A model generated the notes under the pieces. The model saw only the letters and a program-made list of their open reading frames with translations, searched no databases and was not told the DNA's origin. DNA of 64,000 nucleotides from an uncultured Desulfosoma sp. (GTDB taxonomy: Bacteria; Desulfobacterota; Syntrophobacteria; Syntrophobacterales; DSM-9756), in the NCBI GenBank assembly GCA_937960435.1, contig CALGPN010000016.1, positions 1-64,000 of the forward strand. The letters are read 5' to 3'. The position numbers and the translations under genes were made by a program. Below are positions 5,047 to 17,321 of the stretch, one piece after another. The first letter of the stretch is position 1, and the number at the start of each line of letters is the position of its first letter.

Positions 5047-7788
5047 ATGGCAACGCGCTATGTGTATTTTTTCGGGGAAGGCAAGGCGGACGGAAGCGCC
5101 GCCATGAAGCACCTTTTGGGGGGGAAAGGGGCCAATCTGGCGGAAATGACCAATTTGGGCATTCCCGTCCCGCCGGGCTTCACCATATCCACGGATGTGT
5201 GCACCTATTTCTACAAGAACAAAGGATCGTATCCCCCGGGGCTGGAGGCGGAGGTGGAGGAGGCTTTACGGCGGCTGGAAAATCTCATGGGGAGGCGTTT
5301 CGGGGATCCGGAAAAACCCCTTCTGGTCTCGGTGCGATCCGGGGCCGCCATCAGCATGCCCGGGATGATGGATACCGTGTTGAACCTGGGTCTCAACGAC
5401 CAAACGGTGGAAGGCTTGGCCCGGGAAACCAATGATCCGCGTTTCGCCTACGACTGCTACAGACGTTTTCTCAGCATGTACGGGGACGTGGTTTTGGGAC
5501 TCAAGGCGGAAAGCCCCGACGAGATCGATCCTTTTGAAGAAATCATTGACGAACTGAAAAAATCCCGCAACGTTCAGTACGACAACCAGCTGAAGGCCGA
5601 TGATCTCAGGGAATTGTGCGCGCGCTACAAAGAGCTGATTCGAAAAAGAATAGGTAAAGATTTTCCCCAGGATCCGAAAGCGCAACTCTGGGGGGCCATC
5701 GGGGCGGTCTTCGGGTCCTGGGACAATCCGAGGGCCATTGCGTACCGTCAGATCAACGGCATTCCCGACGATATGGGCACGGCAGTGAACGTCCAGTCCA
5801 TGGTTTTCGGGAACATGGGAGACGACTGCGCCACAGGGGTGGCCTTTACCCGCAATCCGGCGACGGGAGAAAATGTCCTCTACGGCGAATATCTGGTGAA
5901 TGCTCAAGGCGAAGACGTGGTCGCCGGCATTCGCACGCCGCAACCCATCAACATTCGTCAAAAGACGGATCCGGCGATGCTGTCCTTGGAAGAAGCCATG
6001 CCGGAAGCCTATGCCGAGCTGGAGCGCATTCGCAAGATCCTCGATCGGCACTACCGAGACATGCAGGACATCGAATTTACCATTCAGCGCCGCAAGCTCT
6101 GGATGTTGCAGACTCGAACGGGCAAGCGCACCGGCTTCGCCGCCTTCAAGATCGCGGTGGATATGGTCCGGGAAGGCATTTTGACGCCGAAAGAGGCCCT
6201 TCTTCGGGTGGAGCCCAACCAGCTGAACCAACTGTTGCGTCCCATCTTCGACGCCCAAGCCAAACAAAAGGCCATCGCCTCCAAAGCCCTTTTGGCCAAA
6301 GGCTTGAACGCCGGACCCGGGGCCGCCACAGGCCGGGTCGTCTTCAATGCCGTAGATGCCGAAGAATGGGCAGAAAGGGGGGAGAAAGTCATCCTTGTGC
6401 GGCTGGAGACGTCGCCTGATGATATCCGCGGCATGCACGCCGCCCAGGGCATTCTGACCTCGCGCGGCGGCATGACGTCCCATGCGGCTCTTGTGGCCCG
6501 GCAGATGGGCAAGGTCTGTGTCGTGGGATGCGGGGATTTGGAAATCGATTACAAGCACAGGCAGATGACGGTCAACGGCCGCGTGGTTAAAGAAGGCGAC
6601 TGGATCTCCGTGGACGGGTCCACAGGCGAAGTTTTCGTAGGGCAAATTCCGACGAAGCCTTCGGAAATCCTGCAGGTTCTCCTGGAAAAAACGCTTAAGC
6701 CCGAGGACTCGGCCATTTACCAAGACTACGTGGAACTCATGCAGTGGGCCGACGCCCATCGGCGTTTGGGGGTTCGCACCAACGCCGATCAACCGGATCA
6801 GGCGCAGACGGCCTTGCTCTTCGGCGCCGAAGGGATCGGGCTGTGCCGCACCGAGCACATGTTCTTCGAAGGGGAACGAATTCACGCCGTCCGCGAAATG
6901 ATCCTTGCGGACACGAGGGAAGGAAGAGAAAAGGCTCTGGCCAAGCTACTCCCCATGCAGCGTGAGGATTTCAAGGGCATCTTTCGGGTGATGAAGGGCC
7001 TTCCGGTGACCATTCGCACCCTGGACCCGCCGCTTCATGAGTTTCTGCCCACGAAAGAGGCGGATATCGAGACCGTGGCCGCCCAAATGGGGGTGCCTGT
7101 GGACCGAGTGCGGGCTAAAATGCAAGCCTTGCACGAAGCTAACCCCATGCTGGGCCATCGAGGGTGTCGACTCGGAGTCGTCTATCCCGAAATTACGGTC
7201 ATGCAGGCTCAAGCCATTCTGGAAGCGGCGTGTGAAGTCAAAAAAGAAGGCATTGACGTCCATCCGGAAATCATGATCCCATTGGTAGGCCATGTGCGAG
7301 AACTGGCCGATCAAAAACGGGTCGTGGACGACGTGGCGCGCCAGGTCATGGAACAGCACGGCGTGTCGTTGGACTACGTCGTCGGGACAATGATCGAGGT
7401 CCCGCGAGGGGCTCTTACGGCCGATGAGATCGCCAAGGAGGCCATGTTCTTTTCTTTCGGCACCAACGACCTCACCCAGACCGTTTACGGCATCAGCCGC
7501 GATGACGCCGCCAAATTCCTCCATGACTATCTGGACAAAAGGATTTGGGATTTTGACCCCTTTGAACGGATCGATCAGGACGGAGTCGGTCAACTCATGA
7601 AGATGGGAGTGGAGAAGGGGCGCGCTACTCGGCCTGATCTCAAGGTGGGGATTTGCGGCGAGCATGGCGGGGAACCGTCTTCCGTAGAGTTTTGCCATCG
7701 GATCGGGTTGGATTACGTCAGTTGCTCCCCGTACCGGGTTCCCATCGCCCGACTGGCCGCCGCCCGTGCCGCCATCCGGGATCAGTAG
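5047..7788 (+). CDS. ppdK: Pyruvate, phosphate dikinase
   Basis: 913-residue PPDK, which interconverts pyruvate, ATP and phosphate with PEP, AMP and diphosphate. Domains in order: ATP-grasp nucleotide-binding part ([10 protein letters not shown] near residue 25), swivelling phosphohistidine domain with the catalytic His479 in [13 protein letters not shown], and a PEP/pyruvate TIM barrel ending with GICGEHGG (Cys870) and the SCSPYRVP motif. An upstream in-frame extension exists, but ATG 5047 has AAGGAGGG 13 bases before it and matches the usual N-terminus. In an anaerobe fixing or releasing acetyl-CoA it links pyruvate to gluconeogenesis. It lies alone behind the acs terminator, 29 bases before the next gene, with which it may be cotranscribed. 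Confidence 0.96.
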
Positions 7789-7817
7789 AAAGCGTTCGGC
7801 ATGAAGAGGGGAAAGCC

Positions 7818-8765
7818 ATGGAGCGTCCTATCAGACTGCGGCGATCGATTCTTTCCGTGCCTGCCAACCGAGAGAAGATGGTCCGAAAAGCGTTGGGTCT
7901 TCCGGCGGATGTCATCATGCTGGACCTGGAAGACAGTGTGCCTGTGGACGAAAAGGAAAAGGCACGCCACGCCGTGGTGGAAGCGCTCACCGCTTCTGGG
8001 TGGGACGGCCGGGTGCGAGCCTATCGGATCAACGATATGGGAACACCTTTTGCCTATCGTGACCTCATCGATGTGGTGGAGAAAGCCGGTTCCCATGTGG
8101 ATGTCATTGTGGTGCCCAAGGTCAACGACGCGGCGGAAATCAAGGCCATTGATTATTGGCTGACCCAAATGGAGATGCGCTTGGGCATCCCGAAGAAAAT
8201 CGGCCTGGAAGCTTCCATTGAAACGGCCCAGGGGATGCTTCACGTGGGCGAGATTGCGGTGAGCTCGTCCAGGCTGGAAGCGCTGGTTTTCGGCATCGCC
8301 GATTACGGCGCCTCTGTGGGGATGCCCAGCGGTGGGATCAGCGGCCATGGGGACGCCGAAGAGGGCACGACCGGTTTTCGATGGCTTTTCCCGCTCAGCC
8401 GCATGGTCATGGCGGCGAAGGCCGCGGGCCTCGCCGCCGTGGATGCTCCCTACGGTGACTTTCGAGCCCCTCAGGGTTTGGCTCGATCGTGTGCCGTGAG
8501 CCGGGCTTTGGGCTATGATGGGAAGTGGGCGATTCATCCCGATCAGTTGGATGTGATCAACCGTGCCTTCACACCCTCGGAAGAGGATGTGACCCGAAGT
8601 CTGCGAATCGTCGAGGCTTACGAAGCGGCCCGGGCTCGCGGCGAAGGGTCTGTGGCCGTGGACGGCAAGATGGTGGACGCTGCCTCGGTACGGATCGCGC
8701 GCGTGACCGTAACGGTCGCGGAAGCGGCGCGCCGAAGCGGAGGTTCCGGCGAATCCACGGCCTGA
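7818..8765 (+). CDS. CitE/malyl-CoA lyase-like (HpcH/HpaI aldolase family) protein
   Basis: 315-residue TIM-barrel protein of the citrate lyase beta-subunit/malyl-CoA lyase family. Visible marks are the SVPANREKM N-terminus, the LDLEDSV strand with metal-site acids, the VPKV strand and an Arg/Glu-rich centre. Members cleave or form (3S)-malyl-CoA, citramalyl-CoA or citryl groups. The substrate cannot be read from the sequence. No citE-type companions (citD, citF) are adjacent, so a free-standing acyl-CoA lyase is more likely than citrate lyase. The start ATG at 7818 has GAGGGGA before it. It lies 29 bases after ppdK, which could place it in C4/C3 interconversion. Confidence 0.82.
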   Translation: MERPIRLRRSILSVPANREKMVRKALGLPADVIMLDLEDSVPVDEKEKARHAVVEALTASGWDGRVRAYRINDMGTPFAYRDLIDVVEKAGSHVDVIVVPKVNDAAEIKAIDYWLTQMEMRLGIPKKIGLEASIETAQGMLHVGEIAVSSSRLEALVFGIADYGASVGMPSGGISGHGDAEEGTTGFRWLFPLSRMVMAAKAAGLAAVDAPYGDFRAPQGLARSCAVSRALGYDGKWAIHPDQLDVINRAFTPSEEDVTRSLRIVEAYEAARARGEGSVAVDGKMVDAASVRIARVTVTVAEAARRSGGSGESTA

Positions 8766-8944
8766 GCTGTGTTTTTGTGCGACACGAGGTTATTGAGGGA
8801 GGCCATCGCCGTTCATTTGGAAAGTTCCCTTTTCCTGCGACATCCTTTTCCCCTGCCGCCGCTCGATGCCGTCACCCTTTGTTGGGGCTCCCTCTTGGGG
8901 ACAACCAAGTTTACCCAAAATGGGATGGGACCGATCAAGGCACA

Positions 8945-10633
8945 ATGAACAGGGTCATGTCGCCAGAATGGAAGGCTCCGGGGTGCCCTCCCCTCATGGA
9001 GGGCGTGGACTGCGAGACGCCGTCCGCACTCAAGGAAAGGATCATTCGGCAGAACAACGAGCTGCAGATTCTTTTTGATATTTCCTCGGCGATTCACAGC
9101 TCACCGCGCTTGGAAGACGTTCTCGAGCAGTCTCTGATCGCCATCCTGCGCACTCTGCAGCTCAAAATGGGAGCCATCTACCTCTTGAGATGTGAAGGCC
9201 GCGGCAACGGGACCATGGTGCTGGCGGCCCAACACGGGTTTTCCTCGACCCTGGTGGAAAACATCCGGTCGTTTTCTGTGGGGGACAGGTGGACGGCGGC
9301 CGGCCGACTGAAGAGCCCCGTCGCATGGCTCAAGAGGGAGCAGCTCTTTTTCCCGGCTCTTAGAGAAAGGATGGCCGCGGAGGACATCCAGGAAATCATC
9401 CGCATCGCCCTTTTCACCCAAAAAGGTGTCCTGGGCCTTCTTTACGTGGCCAACCATGGGGCCCTCCAAATCCGCCATGATCGTCGGGAATTCCTAACTA
9501 CCATCGGGCAACAGATCGGTGTGGCCATCGAGAACGCCCAGCTCTTTGAATCCGTTCAACAGGCAAAAACCGAGCTGGAGATCAGCTTCGATGCGATCCA
9601 ACACAGCATCTTCCTCTTGGACGCGTCCGGGCGTATTCTTCGGATCAACGAAACGACCGAAAAAACTTACGGCCCGAGAGACCGGGTGCTGGGCAAGACC
9701 TACTGGGAGATCCTTTACCAGAAGGTTGAACCTCCCAGCGGCTGCCCGATCCGCGATTGCCTTTTAAGCCGAAGGCCCGTGCAGAAAGAAGGCCCCCATC
9801 CTCGCTGGGGAGGCTTCTATCGCTTGTATGCCTTTCCGGTTCTCAACCTTTCTTCCCAGCTGGAACGCATCGTCTATTACGAAAAGGACGAAACGGAGGC
9901 GAGAAAGCTGGAACAGCGCCTGCAGCAGACCGAACGGCTTCAGTCCTTGGGCACGTTGGCGGCGGGGATCGCCCACGAAATTCGAAACCCCCTGGCGACG
10001 ATCAATTTCAATGCCCAGATGCTCCAACGGGAACTGCACCTGGACGAAAACCAGTCCCAAATGCTTTCGGACCTGATTCAGGAAGTTCGAAAGATCGACA
10101 ACATCGTCCGGGAGGTGCTCAGTTTCGCTCGACCTCGGGAACCTCAGTTTCTGCCGGCGAACCTCAACGACATTGTCCGCTACTGCCACAACCTGTCTAG
10201 GGTTCATATTCGGAAAGCCAAGATCGACCTTTCCTTGGATCTGGATTCGACCATGCCCGAGATGATCATGGACTCGGACCAAATCGGCCAAGTGGTCATG
10301 AATCTCATGATCAACGCCGTGGAAGCCATGCCCCACGGCGGTCGGATGGAGGTGAAAACCCGGGTGGACGACTCGGGCGGTCGGGTGATCTTGAGTGTCA
10401 AGGATACGGGCGAAGGGATCCTCCCTGAGGACGAAGGGAGGATTTTCGATCCTTTTTTTACGCGCAAAGCGGAAGGCACCGGGCTGGGTTTAAGCATCTG
10501 TCGGAGAATTTTGGAGCGGCACGGAGCCCATATCGAAGTAGAGAGCCAGGTGGGCAAAGGGAGCCTGTTTCGGGTGGTGTTTCCACTGACAACGAGAAAA
10601 AACTTGTCGCCCATGGAGGAGACCATCAACTAA
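8945..10633 (+). CDS. GAF-PAS sensor histidine kinase
   Basis: Sensor kinase of about 562 residues. An N-terminal GAF domain (roughly residues 40-185) is followed by a PAS domain (about 200-310), HisKA with the phospho-acceptor His344 in GIAHEIRNPL, and a HATPase domain with N, G1 and G2 boxes (NLMINAVEAM, DTGEGI, GTGLGL). No membrane segment is seen, so it is probably cytoplasmic. The start is uncertain: the frame is open far upstream into the previous gene, and no ATG has a strong ribosome site. ATG 8945 was chosen because it precedes all domains and follows the neighbour's stop. The NtrC-type regulator 80 bases downstream is its likely partner. Confidence 0.87.
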   Translation: MNRVMSPEWKAPGCPPLMEGVDCETPSALKERIIRQNNELQILFDISSAIHSSPRLEDVLEQSLIAILRTLQLKMGAIYLLRCEGRGNGTMVLAAQHGFSSTLVENIRSFSVGDRWTAAGRLKSPVAWLKREQLFFPALRERMAAEDIQEIIRIALFTQKGVLGLLYVANHGALQIRHDRREFLTTIGQQIGVAIENAQLFESVQQAKTELEISFDAIQHSIFLLDASGRILRINETTEKTYGPRDRVLGKTYWEILYQKVEPPSGCPIRDCLLSRRPVQKEGPHPRWGGFYRLYAFPVLNLSSQLERIVYYEKDETEARKLEQRLQQTERLQSLGTLAAGIAHEIRNPLATINFNAQMLQRELHLDENQSQMLSDLIQEVRKIDNIVREVLSFARPREPQFLPANLNDIVRYCHNLSRVHIRKAKIDLSLDLDSTMPEMIMDSDQIGQVVMNLMINAVEAMPHGGRMEVKTRVDDSGGRVILSVKDTGEGILPEDEGRIFDPFFTRKAEGTGLGLSICRRILERHGAHIEVESQVGKGSLFRVVFPLTTRKNLSPMEETIN

Positions 10634-10713
10634 AACCCTGGCCCATATAGCCGGCTCTTCGTCCTCGCTCGCTTTATGACGAAATTTCAGCTGTTGAGGT
10701 GGAATGCGGATTC

Positions 10714-12156
10714 ATGCGAACAGCGCCGATCATTCTCATTATCGACGATGAAACCGGTTTTCGAGGGGCGATCGGTCGGTATTTGAGCCGGAGTTATACC
10801 GTCCACGAAGCCGGCACCGCCGCCGAGGGCATGCGCCTGGCGGCTACGGTTGAGCCTGACGTGGTCTTGCTGGACATCGGCCTGCCCGATGGAAGCGGCT
10901 TGGATCTTCTCCCTCAGCTCAAAGAATTGAGGCCGTCCCCGACCGTCATCATGGTGACGGCCTACGAGCAGGTTCGGGATGTGGTCCAGGCCATGAAAAA
11001 GGGCGCTTTCGACTACCTCGTCAAGCCCGTCGACCTGGAAGAATTCGAGGTCTCCGTCAAGCAGGCTTTGGAATATGCCAGCCTCAGGAATGAGGTGGAG
11101 CGGTTGCGTCAAGAGATGCAGCGGCTCCATCAGGTCAAGACCCTCGTGGGCAGCAGCCCGGCGTTTTTGGAAGCCCAAAATCTTGCCATTCGCAGCGCTC
11201 AGAGCCCCGACGCTGGCGTGCTCCTTCAAGGAGAAAGCGGCGTGGGCAAAGAGCTGTTCGCCCGACTGATCCATGCCACAAGCCCTCGAGCGTCGTATCC
11301 TTTCGTGGCGCTCAACTGTGCCGTCTTCAGCCCGGAAATCATCGAAAGCGAACTCTTTGGGTATGAAAAAGGAGCCTTTACCGGAGCTCGCACCGAAGGC
11401 AAAAAAGGCCTCCTGGAAGCCGCCGACGGGGGCACTCTTTTTCTGGATGAAGTCATCGACTTGCCGGCGGAAGTGCAGGCGAAGCTTCTTCGCGTCCTGG
11501 AGGAGCACGAGTTTTATCCTCTCGGTTCGACTCGGAAAAGGACCGTAGACATTCGGGTTGTGGCTGCGTGCAACCGAGACCTATGGCAGGCTTGTGAAGA
11601 CGGGCTCTTCCGAAAGGATCTTTTTTTCCGTTTGGCCACCATTCAGATCGCTTTGCCCGCCCTTCGGGACCGGCGCGAGGATATCATTCCCTTGGCGCGG
11701 TTTTTTCTCGAGCAGTTCAACGATAAGTATCGCAAACGATTCCGAGATATTAGCGATGAAGCCAAAGAGGTGCTCTTGTGGCATCATTGGCCGGGAAACG
11801 TCCGGGAGCTGCGAAACACCATCGAACGCATCGTGCTTTTGGAAGATGACGATCTGATCCTCAAGAGGCATTTCGATTTTCTCAAACCCCAGCGTGCGCC
11901 CGAATCGGCCCAGAAGGAACCGGAACGAGGGCATTTTCTCCTGTGGGAAAACATGCCTGAAGAGGGCATATCCTTGGAGGAGTTGGAGCAGAAGATCATC
12001 CGAGAAGTTTATGAAAGATGCGGGCGAAATAAATCGAAGACAGCGCGGTTTCTGAGAATTCCTCGACACGTGCTCATTTACCGCATGAAAAAATTCGGCT
12101 TGGATTCGGCATCGCCGTCCTCGAAGGTTTTGAAAGGGATCAATGATGAACAATAA
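10714..12156 (+). CDS. NtrC-family sigma-54 response regulator
   Basis: 480-residue enhancer-binding activator. The receiver domain has acceptor Asp54 (VVLLDIGLPDG) and a conserved Thr and Lys. The AAA+ domain has Walker A GESGVGKE, the sigma-54-contacting GAFTGA loop at residues 220-225, and Walker B FLDE. The C-terminal Fis-type helix-turn-helix includes NKSKTARFLRIPRHVLIYRM. An in-frame GTG lies at 10699, but ATG 10714 is 11 bases after GAGGTGG and gives a standard receiver start. It follows the kinase gene and is itself followed by two palindromes and a sigma-54 promoter, so its own target may be the next gene. Confidence 0.94.
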   Translation: MRTAPIILIIDDETGFRGAIGRYLSRSYTVHEAGTAAEGMRLAATVEPDVVLLDIGLPDGSGLDLLPQLKELRPSPTVIMVTAYEQVRDVVQAMKKGAFDYLVKPVDLEEFEVSVKQALEYASLRNEVERLRQEMQRLHQVKTLVGSSPAFLEAQNLAIRSAQSPDAGVLLQGESGVGKELFARLIHATSPRASYPFVALNCAVFSPEIIESELFGYEKGAFTGARTEGKKGLLEAADGGTLFLDEVIDLPAEVQAKLLRVLEEHEFYPLGSTRKRTVDIRVVAACNRDLWQACEDGLFRKDLFFRLATIQIALPALRDRREDIIPLARFFLEQFNDKYRKRFRDISDEAKEVLLWHHWPGNVRELRNTIERIVLLEDDDLILKRHFDFLKPQRAPESAQKEPERGHFLLWENMPEEGISLEELEQKIIREVYERCGRNKSKTARFLRIPRHVLIYRMKKFGLDSASPSSKVLKGINDEQ

Positions 12157-12177
12157 TCTTCACTGCTTTAAAATGCC

Positions 12178-12191
12178 GGAGAATATTCTCC
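12178..12191. promoter_or_regulatory. Candidate enhancer (UAS) 1
   Basis: Perfect 14-base palindrome GGAGAATATTCTCC followed by ATG. It nearly repeats the sequence at 12268 and lies about 200 bases upstream of a sigma-54 promoter, right after the gene for an NtrC-type activator. A role as activator binding site is inferred. Confidence 0.6.
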
Positions 12192-12267
12192 ATGCCCCCT
12201 CGGGCCTTTAGCACGGCGGGAGAACAGAGGGGCGAGCGAAGGCCGGGGGCGCAAGCCTATGGGCGCT

Positions 12268-12281
12268 GGAGAAAATTCTTC
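12268..12281. promoter_or_regulatory. Candidate enhancer (UAS) 2
   Basis: GGAGAAAATTCTTC followed by ATG, a near copy of the palindrome at 12178 (12 of 14 bases the same, plus the trailing CATG context). Centre-to-centre distance is 90 bases. It lies about 100 bases upstream of the -24 element, a usual distance for enhancer-binding proteins. Confidence 0.6.
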
Positions 12282-12378
12282 ATGAATCGTGAAAGGAACG
12301 CGGGGGGCTGTGGCCGGTGGTCGCCGCAGGGGCTCTGCCCTTCGCGGATCATAAGATCTTTTCAAGGGGAGCTCCGTA

Positions 12379-12394
12379 TGGCACGAGAGTTGCT
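12379..12394 (+). promoter_or_regulatory. Sigma-54 promoter
   Basis: TGGCAC, five bases, then TTGCT: an exact match to the -24/-12 consensus. Transcription would begin near 12405, giving a short leader with GGAGGCG just before the ATG at 12422. Confidence 0.85.
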
Positions 12395-12421
12395 TTGTAA
12401 CTAATCTCGAGTGGAGGCGAT

Positions 12422-12889
12422 ATGCAGCGGGATTTCCTTTCGGGTGCGCGAATTCTCCTCGTGGAAAGTGATGCCCCATTCAGACGCTCTTTGGCAAATG
12501 GCGTGAAGAGGGCCGGTTATCTTTTCGACAGTTGTGGCACGTGTCGCGAAGCACGGCAGTTGGCGAAAATTCGGCACTACGACCTATGCGTGGTGGAATA
12601 TCATTTGACGGACGGTAACGGGGCTCGGCTTGTTGCGGAACTCAAAGCGGTGCATCGGGCACTTCGAGCGATTATCATTTCATTTTACGACTTCGAGTGG
12701 ATTTCTCGCGATGTGACTCCCGTGGCGGATGGGTTTCTCAAAAAACCTTTTGACTTGTTGGAATTCGAGCGAATGATCCATGGCATGGTGGCGGCGGTTC
12801 CTTCTCCAGCTCTTTTTTCCAGTCTCGCGAGTTCCGTGGAACAAGCTCCGGCCCTGACTCTTGCGGAAAGGGTCCTCCAAGCGGTATGA
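12422..12889 (+). CDS. Stand-alone pseudo-receiver protein (phospho-acceptor Asp replaced by Glu)
   Basis: 155-residue single receiver-like domain with a short C-terminal tail and no output domain. The strand order fits CheY-like folds: ILLVESD at residues 11-17, VVEYHLTDG at 57-65, then IIISFYD and GFLKKPFD with the conserved Lys. The acceptor Asp is Glu59 and the acidic pocket is altered (E15, S16, D17), so normal phosphorylation is unlikely and the Glu could mimic a phosphorylated state. The start has GGAGGCG at the right distance. A sigma-54 promoter lies 28 bases upstream, so expression probably depends on the adjacent NtrC-type activator. Confidence 0.85.
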   Translation: MQRDFLSGARILLVESDAPFRRSLANGVKRAGYLFDSCGTCREARQLAKIRHYDLCVVEYHLTDGNGARLVAELKAVHRALRAIIISFYDFEWISRDVTPVADGFLKKPFDLLEFERMIHGMVAAVPSPALFSSLASSVEQAPALTLAERVLQAV

Positions 12890-13071
12890 AACACTGTTGC
12901 GGAAAGCGGACAATTCGACTTAATTTCGAGCGGTGATCGTTGTCCATCGGAGATTCAGGCGGTTGATGCGACAAAGGATTTTCGATCTCGTGTTCCTCTT
13001 CTGATTCAATGGACTGTTGAGATTCCTCACCCCCTTTTCCCTACTCTTTATCAAAGAGGCCCTTTCCAATG

Positions 13072-13110
13072 AAAGGCCGCAGGCAAGAACCTGCGGCCTT
13101 TCGTATTTTT
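13072..13110 (+). terminator. Rho-independent terminator after pseudo-receiver gene
   Basis: Perfect 12-base arms AAAGGCCGCAGG (13072-13083) and its complement (13090-13101), six-base loop, then CGTATTTTT. Confidence 0.85.
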
Positions 13111-13182: not shown

Positions 13183-13211
13183 TTGAAAGGGTGGTCGGTC
13201 GCGGATATAAA
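13183..13211 (+). promoter_or_regulatory. Sigma-70-type promoter for small gene at 13290
   Basis: TTGAAA at 13183-13188, 17-base spacer, TATAAA at 13206-13211. It lies about 70 bases upstream of the ribosome site of the small gene. Confidence 0.65.
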
Positions 13212-13821: not shown

Positions 13822-14772
13822 ATGGAACTTGAAAGGAAGCTTCAGAAGGGCTTGGAACCCAAGGGTGTGACACGTCGTGATTTCATGAAGTTTTGCACCA
13901 TGGTGTCGGCGACCATGGGCTTGGCACCATCCTTTGCGCCGAAGATTGCCCAAGCGTTATCATCCGGCCCGAGGCCGCCCGTCGTGTATCTCCATTTCGC
14001 CGAGTGCACGGGCTGTACGGAAGCGGTTTTGCGCTCCACCTATCCCTGGATCGACGAGCTGCTTCTGGAAACCATTTCCGTCGATTATCACGAAACCATC
14101 ATGGCGGCGGCGGGTCACAGCGTGGAAGAAGTGCTGCACCAGACCGTCAAGAAATATGAAGGGAAATTCATTTGTGTCGTGGAAGGCGGCATTCCCACGG
14201 CCGACAACGGCATCTACGGCATGATCGGGGGAAAGACCATGCTGGAGATCGCCAAGGAAGTCTGCCCCAAATCCTTGGCCGTCCTGTGTATCGGCTCGTG
14301 CTCTTCGTTCGGCGGGGTGCAGGCGGCGGCTCCGAACCCCACAGGGGCCAAAGGGGTATCGGACGCCCTGGCCGATGTCTTGAAAGTTCCCGTGGTGAAC
14401 ATTCCCGGCTGTCCCCCCAACCCCATCAACTTCGTCGGCACCGTGGTCAATTACCTCCTGTTCGGCAAGCTCCCGGATCTGGACGACAAGAAGCGGCCTC
14501 TGTTCGCCTACGGCAAGACCGTCCATGATCAGTGCCCGCGGCGCTCCCATTTTGAAAACGGCGAATTCGTCAAGGAATGGGGATCCAAGGAAGCCCAAAT
14601 GGGTTACTGCCTTTATGAAATGGGCTGTAAGGGGCCGGAAACCTATAACAATTGTCCCTTGGTCAAATTCAACGACGGGACGAGTTGGCCGGTGGAAGCC
14701 GGGCACCCCTGCATCGGCTGCAGTGAGCCCAATTTCTGGGATGCCATGTCGCCGTTCTACCAAAAGCTTTAA
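13822..14772 (+). CDS. [NiFe] hydrogenase small subunit, Tat-exported
   Basis: 316-residue small subunit that holds the electron-transferring Fe-S clusters of a group 1 uptake-type hydrogenase. A twin-arginine signal (TRRDFMKF, then a hydrophobic stretch ending near PKIAQA) directs the folded dimer to the periplasm. The proximal cluster ligands start at ECTGCTE, and further Cys/His ligands lie in GCPPNP, the [10 protein letters not shown] segment and the C-terminal HPCIGCSEP. The frame is open further upstream, but ATG 13822 has AGGAGGT at the right distance and puts the Tat motif near the N-terminus. It is followed closely by the large subunit; no cytochrome partner is adjacent, so a soluble periplasmic enzyme reducing cytochrome c is likely. 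Confidence 0.94.
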
Positions 14773-14829
14773 ACTTGATCCCGGGGCTCAAGCCTGAACA
14801 AGGACACCAATCTCAAGGAGAGACGAAAT

Positions 14830-16470
14830 ATGGCACAACGAATTGTGGTCGATCCCATCACCCGAATCGAGGGACACCTGCGGATCGAAGTGGAAGTCGC
14901 CAACGGCAAAGTGACCAACGCGTGGAGCAGTTCCACGCTCTTTCGCGGCCTGGAAATTATTCTCAAGGGGCGCGATCCGCGGGATGCCTGGCTTTTCACC
15001 CAGCGTGCCTGCGGCGTGTGCACCTATGTGCACGGGTTGGCATCCATCCGCTGCGTAGACAATGCAGTGGGCGTCACCATTCCCGACAATGCGCGCCTTA
15101 TTCGAAACCTGCTTATGGGCGCGCAGTTTCTTCATGATCATATCGTCCATTTCTATCATCTCCATGCCTTGGACTGGGTGGATGTGGTCAGCGCGCTGAA
15201 GGCGGATCCCGTCAAAGCTTCAAAGATTGCCAACGATGTGTCCCCGGCGCCGAAGAACGGTCCGGGCGATTTCAAGGCCGTTCAGGCCCGTTTGAAGAAG
15301 TTTGTGGACAGCGGTCAGCTGGGCCTCTTCGCCAACGGCTATTGGGGACATCCGGCTTACAAGCTGCCGCCGGAAGTCAACCTGATCGCCGCGGCTCATT
15401 ATCTGGAAGCGCTCCGCCAGCAGGCGAGAACCGCCCGCATGCATGCGGTCTTCGGCGCTAAGAACCCGCACCTGCAAAGCCTTGTGGTGGGCGGGGTGAG
15501 CTGCGCCGCGGACCTCAATCCCGACCGAATTTCCGAATTCCTGTATCTGTGGAAAGAAACCATGGACTTCGTCAACAATGTCTACATTCCCGACTTGTTG
15601 GCGGTGGCCGGTTTCTACAAGGATTGGGGATCCATCGGTGGGACGACCAATTTCCTCTGCTACGGCGAATTTCCACAAAGCGCCAAGGAACCGGAAAGCC
15701 TATTCTTCCCGCGGGGGGCAATTTTCAAGCGCAACTTGGCCAAAGTGGAAAATGTGGATCCGGCGAAGATCACCGAACACGTCAAGCACAGTTGGTACGA
15801 AGGCGACGGCGCCCTCAACCCCGCTCAGGGCGAAACCAAGCCCAAGTTCACCAAACTCGACACCAACGGCGAGTACAGCTGGATGAAAGCGCCGCGTTAC
15901 AACGGCGAGCCCATGGAAGTGGGGCCGTTGGCTCGGGTGCTTGTGGCTTACGCCAAGGGGCACGAACCCACAAAGAAAGCGGTGGATGGCGTATTGAAGA
16001 AGCTGGCCGTTCCCAAGGAGGCGTTGTTCTCCACATTGGGGCGGACCGCCGCTCGCGCCATCGAAACCCAGATCATCGGCCAGGCCATGGAAGGCTGGAT
16101 CATGCAGTTGGTCGAAAACCTCAAGAAGGGCGACACCAAGACCTTCGAACCCTACCAAATGCCAGAAAGCGCTCAAGGCATGGGGCTGAACGATGTCCCT
16201 CGCGGGGCCCTGGGCCACTGGATCGAGATCAAAGAAAAAAAGATCGCCAATTATCAGTTGGTGGTGCCGTCCACCTGGAATTTAGGGCCGCGCTGTGCCG
16301 CCAACAAGCCGGGTCCGGTGGAAGAAGCTCTCATCGGGACTCCCGTGGCCGATCCGAAGCGGCCGGTGGAAATCCTTCGCACGGTCCATTCCTTCGATCC
16401 GTGCATCGCCTGCGGCGTTCATGTGATTGATCCTCACAGCAACCAAGTGTATAAGTTCAGGGTCGTGTAG
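14830..16470 (+). CDS. [NiFe] hydrogenase large (catalytic) subunit
   Basis: 546-residue catalytic subunit carrying the Ni-Fe site. The four nickel ligands are Cys61 and Cys64 (RACGVCTYVHG) and Cys525 and Cys528 (DPCIACGVH). All four are cysteines encoded by TGC or TGT, so this is an ordinary [NiFe] and not a selenocysteine [NiFeSe] enzyme. The last 15 residues after His531 form the tail normally removed by a maturation protease, and the gene for such a protease is next. The subunit has no Tat signal and should travel with the small subunit. RBS: AAGGAGAG. Gap to small subunit: 57 bases. Confidence 0.96.
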   Translation: MAQRIVVDPITRIEGHLRIEVEVANGKVTNAWSSSTLFRGLEIILKGRDPRDAWLFTQRACGVCTYVHGLASIRCVDNAVGVTIPDNARLIRNLLMGAQFLHDHIVHFYHLHALDWVDVVSALKADPVKASKIANDVSPAPKNGPGDFKAVQARLKKFVDSGQLGLFANGYWGHPAYKLPPEVNLIAAAHYLEALRQQARTARMHAVFGAKNPHLQSLVVGGVSCAADLNPDRISEFLYLWKETMDFVNNVYIPDLLAVAGFYKDWGSIGGTTNFLCYGEFPQSAKEPESLFFPRGAIFKRNLAKVENVDPAKITEHVKHSWYEGDGALNPAQGETKPKFTKLDTNGEYSWMKAPRYNGEPMEVGPLARVLVAYAKGHEPTKKAVDGVLKKLAVPKEALFSTLGRTAARAIETQIIGQAMEGWIMQLVENLKKGDTKTFEPYQMPESAQGMGLNDVPRGALGHWIEIKEKKIANYQLVVPSTWNLGPRCAANKPGPVEEALIGTPVADPKRPVEILRTVHSFDPCIACGVHVIDPHSNQVYKFRVV

Positions 16471-16501
16471 TTCGGTGACGTTCTGAACGGGAAATTCCCG
16501 A

Positions 16502-16535
16502 AGGGGACCCCGCCCTCTCCTGGGTGGGGTCCCCT
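16502..16535 (+). terminator. Hairpin between hydrogenase structural and maturation genes
   Basis: Fourteen-base arms (16502-16515 and 16522-16535, one mismatch) with a six-base loop and only a weak pyrimidine tail. It probably lowers expression of the protease and hypC relative to the structural genes, or protects the structural mRNA. Confidence 0.55.
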
Positions 16536-16564
16536 CTTCCATTTCCAAGGGATGGGCCGACGCT

Positions 16565-17122
16565 ATGAAGCCGCAGCGGATTTTGGTTTTGGGAGTGGGC
16601 AACGTGCTCTTGAAAGACGAAGGGCTCGGCGTGCATCTTGTGCACCGGCTTCAAGCGTCTTATGAATTTTCCGGTAATGTGGAGCTTCTGGACGGGGGAA
16701 CTTTGGGTCTTCGGCTCTTGGATCCCATCAGCCAAGCGGATTACGTGATCGTCATCGATGCCGTGCAAAACGGCGCAGAACCTGGGACAATCCATAAGAT
16801 CCCCGCAGAGGTCTTATCCAAAAAGGTGGCCTTCAAGAACTCCATCCATCAATTGGACCTCGTGGAAACCCTGGCTTATGCGGAAGTGCTGGGCCGGCGT
16901 CCCACGTGTGTGATCCTGGGCATCGAACCTTTGGATATCGGCCCATGGGGAACCTGGCTCACGCCTCCGGTGGCGGCCAAGGTTGAGGCCCTGGAAGCGT
17001 TGGTTCTCGAGGAAATCCATCATGCCGGAGGGTCCTGGACGTTCAGAGCGGACGGATCTTCCAAGGCGAGCGAGGAGACGGGTTATGTGTTTGGCGATTC
17101 CGGCGGAAATCATCGCCATTGA
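16565..17122 (+). CDS. Hydrogenase maturation endopeptidase
   Basis: 185-residue HyaD/HybD-type protease that trims the C-terminal tail of the large subunit after nickel insertion. The N-terminal GVGNVLLKDEGLGVH motif includes the nickel-sensing Glu, VIDAV holds the Asp and SIHQ the His of the metal site. The C-terminus is about 25 residues longer than usual and runs into hypC (38-base overlap). Its placement right after the large subunit points to that subunit as substrate. Confidence 0.93.
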   Translation: MKPQRILVLGVGNVLLKDEGLGVHLVHRLQASYEFSGNVELLDGGTLGLRLLDPISQADYVIVIDAVQNGAEPGTIHKIPAEVLSKKVAFKNSIHQLDLVETLAYAEVLGRRPTCVILGIEPLDIGPWGTWLTPPVAAKVEALEALVLEEIHHAGGSWTFRADGSSKASEETGYVFGDSGGNHRH

Positions 17123-17321
17123 AGACGAAATGGCCACGGTCAAAGTCGGGGGGGCGGTGCGCAAGGCGTCGTTGACGCTCCTTCCTGAGGCCGCTGCCAT
17201 CGGCGATTACGTGATCGTCCATGCAGGGTTTGCGTTGCACAAGGTCGATCCCCGGGAGGCTGAAGAGTCCTTGCGCCTGCTTCGGGAGTTGGCGTCCCAT
17301 GCGGCAGAGGTTCCCGAGTAA
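17085..17321 (+). CDS. hypC: Hydrogenase assembly chaperone HypC
   Basis: 78-residue HypC/HupF chaperone with the diagnostic MCLAIP N-terminus, whose Cys2 binds the Fe(CN)2CO unit and the large-subunit precursor. The start overlaps the end of the protease gene by 38 bases in another frame, so translation is probably coupled. hypA, B, D, E and F are not in this window and must lie elsewhere. Confidence 0.93.
   Translation: MCLAIPAEIIAIEDEMATVKVGGAVRKASLTLLPEAAAIGDYVIVHAGFALHKVDPREAEESLRLLRELASHAAEVPE

Follow-up and report, generated by a model that had tools for sequence, protein, structure and literature searches.

What is controlled by a perfect sigma-54 promoter that lies directly behind an NtrC-type activator gene, and is it the only target of that activator? 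The question is raised by a locus of an uncultured Desulfosoma sp. within a stretch of 64,000 nt (contig CALGPN010000016.1, positions 1 to 64,000), hereafter the window. An earlier note on this DNA had read the activator gene, its DNA target and the promoter as one regulatory unit. RNA-based control has been little explored in sulfate-reducing and syntrophic bacteria, on which the fate of hydrogen and propionate in anoxic environments depends. The reading preferred here, to which as a whole we give an even chance, is that one regulator, three operators and one sigma-54 promoter would serve a single transcript carrying both a pseudo-receiver and a structured RNA. The features are listed in Table 1.

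Table 1. Predicted features of the locus, in window coordinates.
Feature	Position	Strand	Remarks
Sensor histidine kinase	8807..10633	+	GAF-PAS-HisKA-HATPase (Pfam); start codon uncertain
NtrC-type sigma-54 response regulator	10714..12156	+	Pfam: receiver, AAA+ with GAFTGA, Fis HTH
Operator A	12147..12162		TGAACAATAATCTTCA; most upstream, 232 bp before the -24 element
Operator B	12177..12192		CGGAGAATATTCTCCA; includes the first palindrome of the earlier note
Operator C	12267..12282		TGGAGAAAATTCTTCA; includes the second palindrome of the earlier note
Sigma-54 promoter	12379..12394	+	TGGCAC-N5-TTGCT, TGGCACGAGAGTTGCT; perfect consensus match
Stand-alone pseudo-receiver, 155 aa	12422..12889	+	Glu59 for the phosphosite Asp, Glu15 for Asp, Ser87 for Thr; Lys108 kept
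Conserved non-coding RNA (predicted)	12865-13110	+	P1, interior and terminator
P1 5' arm	12865..12877	+	GGAAAGGGtCCTC; lies within the receiver gene, near its end
RNA interior	12878..13055	+	Hexamer-periodic and GYKSA-rich in relatives; weak here
P1 3' arm	13056..13067	+	GAGGCCCTTTCC; closing stem
Intrinsic terminator, conserved	13071..13110	+	13-bp stem 13071-13083 / 13090-13102, then GTATTTTT
Sigma-70-type promoter	13183..13211	+	TTGAAA-N17-TATAAA; separate, for the next gene
XRE-like HTH-fold protein, 58 aa	13290..13466	+	Conserved neighbour, separate transcript

Activator and kinase

The activator gene (start codon at 10699 or 10714) ends at 12156, immediately in front of the promoter region as noted earlier, and Pfam domains confirmed its class. 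Pfam and the orthologues together gave a receiver with phospho-Asp, an AAA+ domain with GAFTGA and a Fis-type HTH, which are the domains of the NtrC class. GAFTGA is kept in 32 of the 32 orthologues examined, and the phospho-aspartate (LLDIGLPD) in all 31 in which the receiver domain was covered. The recognition helix PRH[VI]x-x-YR is near-identical in the same 32 proteins, with Q as the first residue in two of them.

The histidine kinase is the probable partner of the activator. Its gene adjoins the activator gene in family f1 only; in those f3 genomes that were inspected, no kinase gene was found next to the activator. Genes for a pyruvate phosphate dikinase and an HpcH/CitE-like lyase (5047-8765) are syntenic with the kinase-activator pair in f1.

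Operators and promoter

Orthologous loci were located with the 155-aa receiver gene behind the promoter, and the oriented upstream regions were compared. Both palindromes described earlier, at 12178 and 12268, were found: GGAGAATATTCTCC (12178-12191) is a perfect 14-base palindrome, and GGAGAAAATTCTTC (12268-12281), which starts 90 bases after it, is imperfect, with five of seven half-site pairs complementary. The consensus operator from 81 aligned sites is the 16-bp palindrome TGRASAATATTSTYCA with about 17 bits, a better consensus than the 14-base form. Operator A overlaps the stop codon of the activator gene.

A weight matrix was built from the operators of the relatives, with the genus of the window left out. 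The top three scores in the 64 kb were obtained at 12267 (23.7 bits), 12147 (23.3 bits) and 12177 (21.7 bits), followed by a next-best match of 15.6 bits. In 20 simulated 64-kb sequences the maxima ranged from 8.7 to 19.2 bits and none reached 20. The three operators are the only above-chance sites in the window.

The promoter motif TGGCAC-N5-TTGCT, reported earlier at 12379, is present and matches the consensus perfectly; transcription is predicted to start near 12405. Searching the window for TGGCAC-N5-TTGCW gave 12379 as the sole match, even with one mismatch allowed, and the whole 3.0-Mb genome holds five exact matches.

The layout of activator gene, three operators, -24/-12 promoter and small receiver gene was found at 28 of 29 loci (own genome and relatives). 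Relative to the first nucleotide of the -24 element, the operators of these loci lie at about -203 to -236, -173 to -204 and -89 to -115. In the exception, G028, the upper two operators are displaced. The operators belong to the promoter and not to the end of the activator gene, because in G021, where 1,483 bp separate the activator gene end from the receiver gene, the sites stay beside the promoter. The fixed geometry and the nearly invariant recognition helix argue for the proposed unit of activator, DNA target and promoter. The earlier description was incomplete in that it listed two operators and missed the third at 12147-12162, the pseudo-receiver nature of the next gene and the RNA. We infer that the regulator would bind the three palindromic operators that follow its gene, and that the direction of regulation would be activation of the one sigma-54 promoter.

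A sigma-70-like match, TTGAAA-N16-AATAAT (12130-12157), overlaps both operator A and the 3' end of the activator gene. Judged by this position, it could give a basal transcript that is blocked by the activator.

Search for further targets

The motif search reaches close matches only, and weak additional targets of the regulator could exist. The exact palindrome was not found elsewhere in the own genome. With up to one mismatch to the 16-mer, the own genome holds the three operators and one extra strong site, C12:24001, which falls within a CO dehydrogenase gene; no pairing of a one-mismatch match with a promoter was seen outside the locus. In ten relatives few extra one-mismatch sites were present, and none of those examined lay close to a good sigma-54 promoter. 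By these results the regulator appears to serve a single promoter. The earlier note had suggested searching the genome for the palindrome near other -24/-12 promoters; this search came out negative, which points to a single target rather than a regulon. A wider regulon was rejected, as no other strong site lies beside a sigma-54 promoter in the own genome.

One extra site, TGAACAATGTTCTTCA, is shared by two genera (L213, G015:C1:244580; and G009:C103:17333). In G015 it lies inside a long open frame without a nearby sigma-54 promoter.

Stand-alone pseudo-receiver

The protein encoded directly behind the promoter is predicted to have a normal receiver fold (pLDDT above 90 over 114 residues). Glu occupies the phosphosite in 21 of 21 aligned receiver proteins; in addition, Asp is changed to Glu in the acidic pocket and Thr to Ser, and the Lys is kept. 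The protein thus combines a receiver fold with the loss of the phosphorylatable Asp, as is characteristic of pseudo-receivers. Within the class sample, all f1 and f3 genomes have it as a single copy (at least 170 bits, the next receivers scoring about 82 or less), and it was absent from f2 and the other families.

Replacement of Asp by Glu is a common change in atypical response regulators; it can mimic phosphorylation in some regulators and has been disproved as a mimic in others, and the role of Asp-to-Glu pseudo-receivers was named an open question in a recent review (PMC12632262). The receiver fold with Asp changed to Glu is shared with known pseudo-receivers, whereas here the protein is stand-alone, its Glu is invariant (21/21), its promoter would be controlled by a canonical regulator and its transcript would be shared with an RNA. 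The module offers a natural setting in which to study the role of Asp-to-Glu pseudo-receivers. The protein would act on a protein partner without need of phosphorylation.

Closing stem and terminator

The 3' end of the presumed transcript carries a closing stem (P1), a variable interior and a terminator. Covariation was determined in an alignment of 26 sequences restricted to the arms of P1 and the terminator. In this alignment 94.0% of the cells are paired, compared with 40-61% in slid controls, and none of 500 shuffles was as high. Two-sided changes occur in 18 of the 24 pairs in at least one sequence (6 of 10 for P1). An independent duplex test agreed: the 5' arm pairs better with the 3' arm of its own genome than with the arms of other genomes (-22.9 vs -19.2 kcal/mol; 0 of 10,000 permutations), the interior controls giving -11.1 kcal/mol. 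For the window, the P1 duplex has -22.0 kcal/mol, a value reached by 0.05% of shuffled arms.

P1 and the terminator, which both lie outside the interior, thus covary beyond chance, as in a structured RNA. No family of Rfam 15 was hit at the gathering score, and the best weak match was unrelated. These data point to a new family of structured non-coding RNA, whose presence as a cellular RNA is predicted. The pseudo-receiver and the new RNA are conserved in two families of the order, f1 and f3. A 14-nt near-repeat, ACTCTTGCGGAAAG / ACTGTTGCGGAAAG (12857-12906), spans the stop codon of the receiver gene, close to where the RNA begins.

Interior of the RNA

Across the loci the interior is 160-290 nt long; its sequence identity is lost quickly and it cannot be aligned across genera. 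In the relatives, autocorrelation of the interior gave z values of 13.1 at lag 6, 7.7 at lag 12 and 7.8 at lag 18, and of 0.3 at lag 3 and 1.2 at lag 9. The word GYKSA was counted 201 times in the interiors, with 65 expected, a threefold enrichment. No lag-6 signal was found in neighbouring intergenic controls. In the receiver coding sequence GYKSA is enriched about twofold, and a weaker lag-6 signal (z = 4.3) stands alongside a dominant lag 3. The evidence for the repeat comes from the relatives, chiefly f3, because the copy in the window is short and shows the signal faintly (GYKSA 4 vs 1.4 expected; lag-6 z = 0.1).

Flat values at lags 3 and 9 argue against a coding interior, and no conserved reading frame was found in the stretch that separates the receiver gene from its downstream neighbour; on both grounds a hidden coding gene was rejected. 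A repetitive mobile element was also rejected, the interior being single-copy in the genome. PPR matches were set aside as short repeat matches.

It is possible, though we think it rather unlikely, that the unit makes only the pseudo-receiver; the 3' region would then be an mRNA tail for stability and clean termination, and the hexamer words would be without a separate function. The transcript encodes no conserved protein other than the receiver, which occurs once per genome throughout f1 and f3, and an interior that is unalignable across genera and little periodic in the window would suit such a tail. However, the 6-nt periodicity and the threefold word enrichment persist despite the lost sequence identity, and P1 shows covariation and persists even at loci whose receiver gene stops 35-87 nt upstream of it (L165, L169, L171). 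Under the preferred reading, of a pseudo-receiver and a structured RNA on one transcript, the operators, the promoter, the Asp-to-Glu change, the stem, the terminator and the periodicity are each supported by sequence comparison.

Downstream genes

Genes for the small and large subunits of a [NiFe] hydrogenase, a maturation protease and HypC follow at 13822-17321, 0.9 kb downstream of the receiver gene. This operon is syntenic with the module in most relatives, and a link of the module to hydrogen metabolism is plausible. At four loci (L161, L163, L170, L172) the module has no hydrogenase operon behind it.

The neighbourhood might suggest ordinary local regulation, with the regulator driving a hydrogenase-linked operon as HoxA or HupR do. 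Despite the short distance and the synteny in most relatives, this is very improbable: the strong conserved terminator and the sigma-70-type promoter intervene, no operator or close sigma-54 match was found upstream of the hydrogenase genes in the window, and the module persists where hydrogenase genes are not adjacent.

An attenuator is improbable as well. Here, P1 and the terminator would compete with an alternative pairing (13058-13078), and a protein bound there, or a ribosome at the end of the receiver gene, would control how much transcription continues into the HTH gene and on to the hydrogenase operon. The 3' arm of P1 can indeed pair with the 5' arm of the terminator in the window (GGCCCTTTCC with GAAAGGCC), and the hydrogenase operon follows in most genomes. 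In f3 genomes, however, the alternative pairing amounts by inspection to only about CCTT/AAGG, the HTH gene of the window is preceded by a separate promoter, the four loci named above keep the module without the operon behind it, and the long hexamer-rich interior would be left unexplained.

The 58-aa HTH protein gave no Pfam or NCBIfam match and is not clearly part of the RNA module. It is conserved in the order, including f2, and weakly in other families of the phylum. As a partner of the RNA it was rejected, because in f2 it occurs in another context without the RNA.

Proposed mechanism and known systems

In the preferred reading, the kinase encoded next door (in f1) would phosphorylate the dedicated NtrC-type regulator, and the transcript from the activated promoter (about 12405-13110) would encode a pseudo-receiver locked at Glu and end in the structured non-coding RNA, composed of closing stem, fast-evolving hexamer-rich interior and strong terminator. 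We infer that this RNA would be a functional product separate from the mRNA and would capture a protein. By analogy with CrcZ, it would most likely be a regulatory RNA that carries repeats and sequesters an RNA-binding protein. Rapid sequence change around a short repeat that is conserved would be expected of a titrating RNA, and fits the interior.

As is proposed for the module, an NtrC-type response regulator and sigma-54 drive a small RNA in the LuxO-Qrr system of Vibrio and the GlrR-GlmY system of enterobacteria. Qrr and GlmY come from genes that stand alone and act by base pairing or as mimics; to our knowledge, their transcripts have neither a receiver gene nor a hexamer-periodic interior, both of which are present in the module. 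CsrB/RsmZ (BarA-UvrY / GacS-GacA) share with it a repeat-bearing RNA, a strong terminator and two-component control. In contrast to CsrB/RsmZ, control here would be by sigma-54 rather than sigma-70, and ANGGA, the CsrA word, is not enriched in the RNA (19 observed vs 17.8 expected).

The closest parallel in layout is CbrAB-CrcZ of Pseudomonas and Azotobacter, in which the RNA CrcZ titrates Hfq/Crc (PMC8871633). Genes for a kinase and an NtrC-type regulator, followed directly by a sigma-54 promoter for a regulatory RNA, three upstream regulator subsites and family-wide synteny are common to both (PMC8871633, PMC6296734). The CbrB subsites, however, are non-palindromic and 20-25 bp apart, whereas here 16-bp palindromes are spaced by 30 and 90 bp; dozens of targets are served by CbrB, and here a single promoter would be the target. 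Unlike in CrcZ, the promoter and the RNA are separated by a pseudo-receiver gene, and no recognisable Hfq is present in most of the genomes. The RNA was not placed in the CrcZ family, with no Rfam match and with Hfq nearly absent from the genomes searched (11 of 12 gave no Hfq, and the remaining one a match below the cut-off). Nor was it placed with the CsrA-titrating RNAs, for which multiple ANGGA words and CsrA wherever the RNA occurs would be expected: CsrA was not found in the complete genome of Syntrophobacter fumaroxidans (taken as G031), which carries the module. The partner cannot be CsrA or Hfq throughout, because no CsrA was found in S. fumaroxidans and Hfq is nearly absent; together with the lack of ANGGA enrichment, this makes CsrA or Hfq titration unlikely.

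Tentatively, and with more doubt than confidence, the RNA may be the founder of a new class of titrating RNAs, with a degenerate 6-nt code (about GYKSAW) and a reader protein that is neither CsrA nor Hfq, acting jointly with a receiver that mimics phosphorylation and is encoded on the same sigma-54 transcript. A single-target two-component system with a pseudo-receiver and a hexamer-coded RNA is a defined place to seek an RNA-binding regulator. The operator motif and the RNA boundaries make the module testable in S. fumaroxidans, whose genome has 4,990,251 bp (PMC3570798). In that genome an operator-like sequence, TGAAGAAGATTCTTCA (G031:C1:3648993-3649008; L162 near 13994), is located some 90 bp in front of the activator gene; by its position, autoregulation of the activator through this site is possible.
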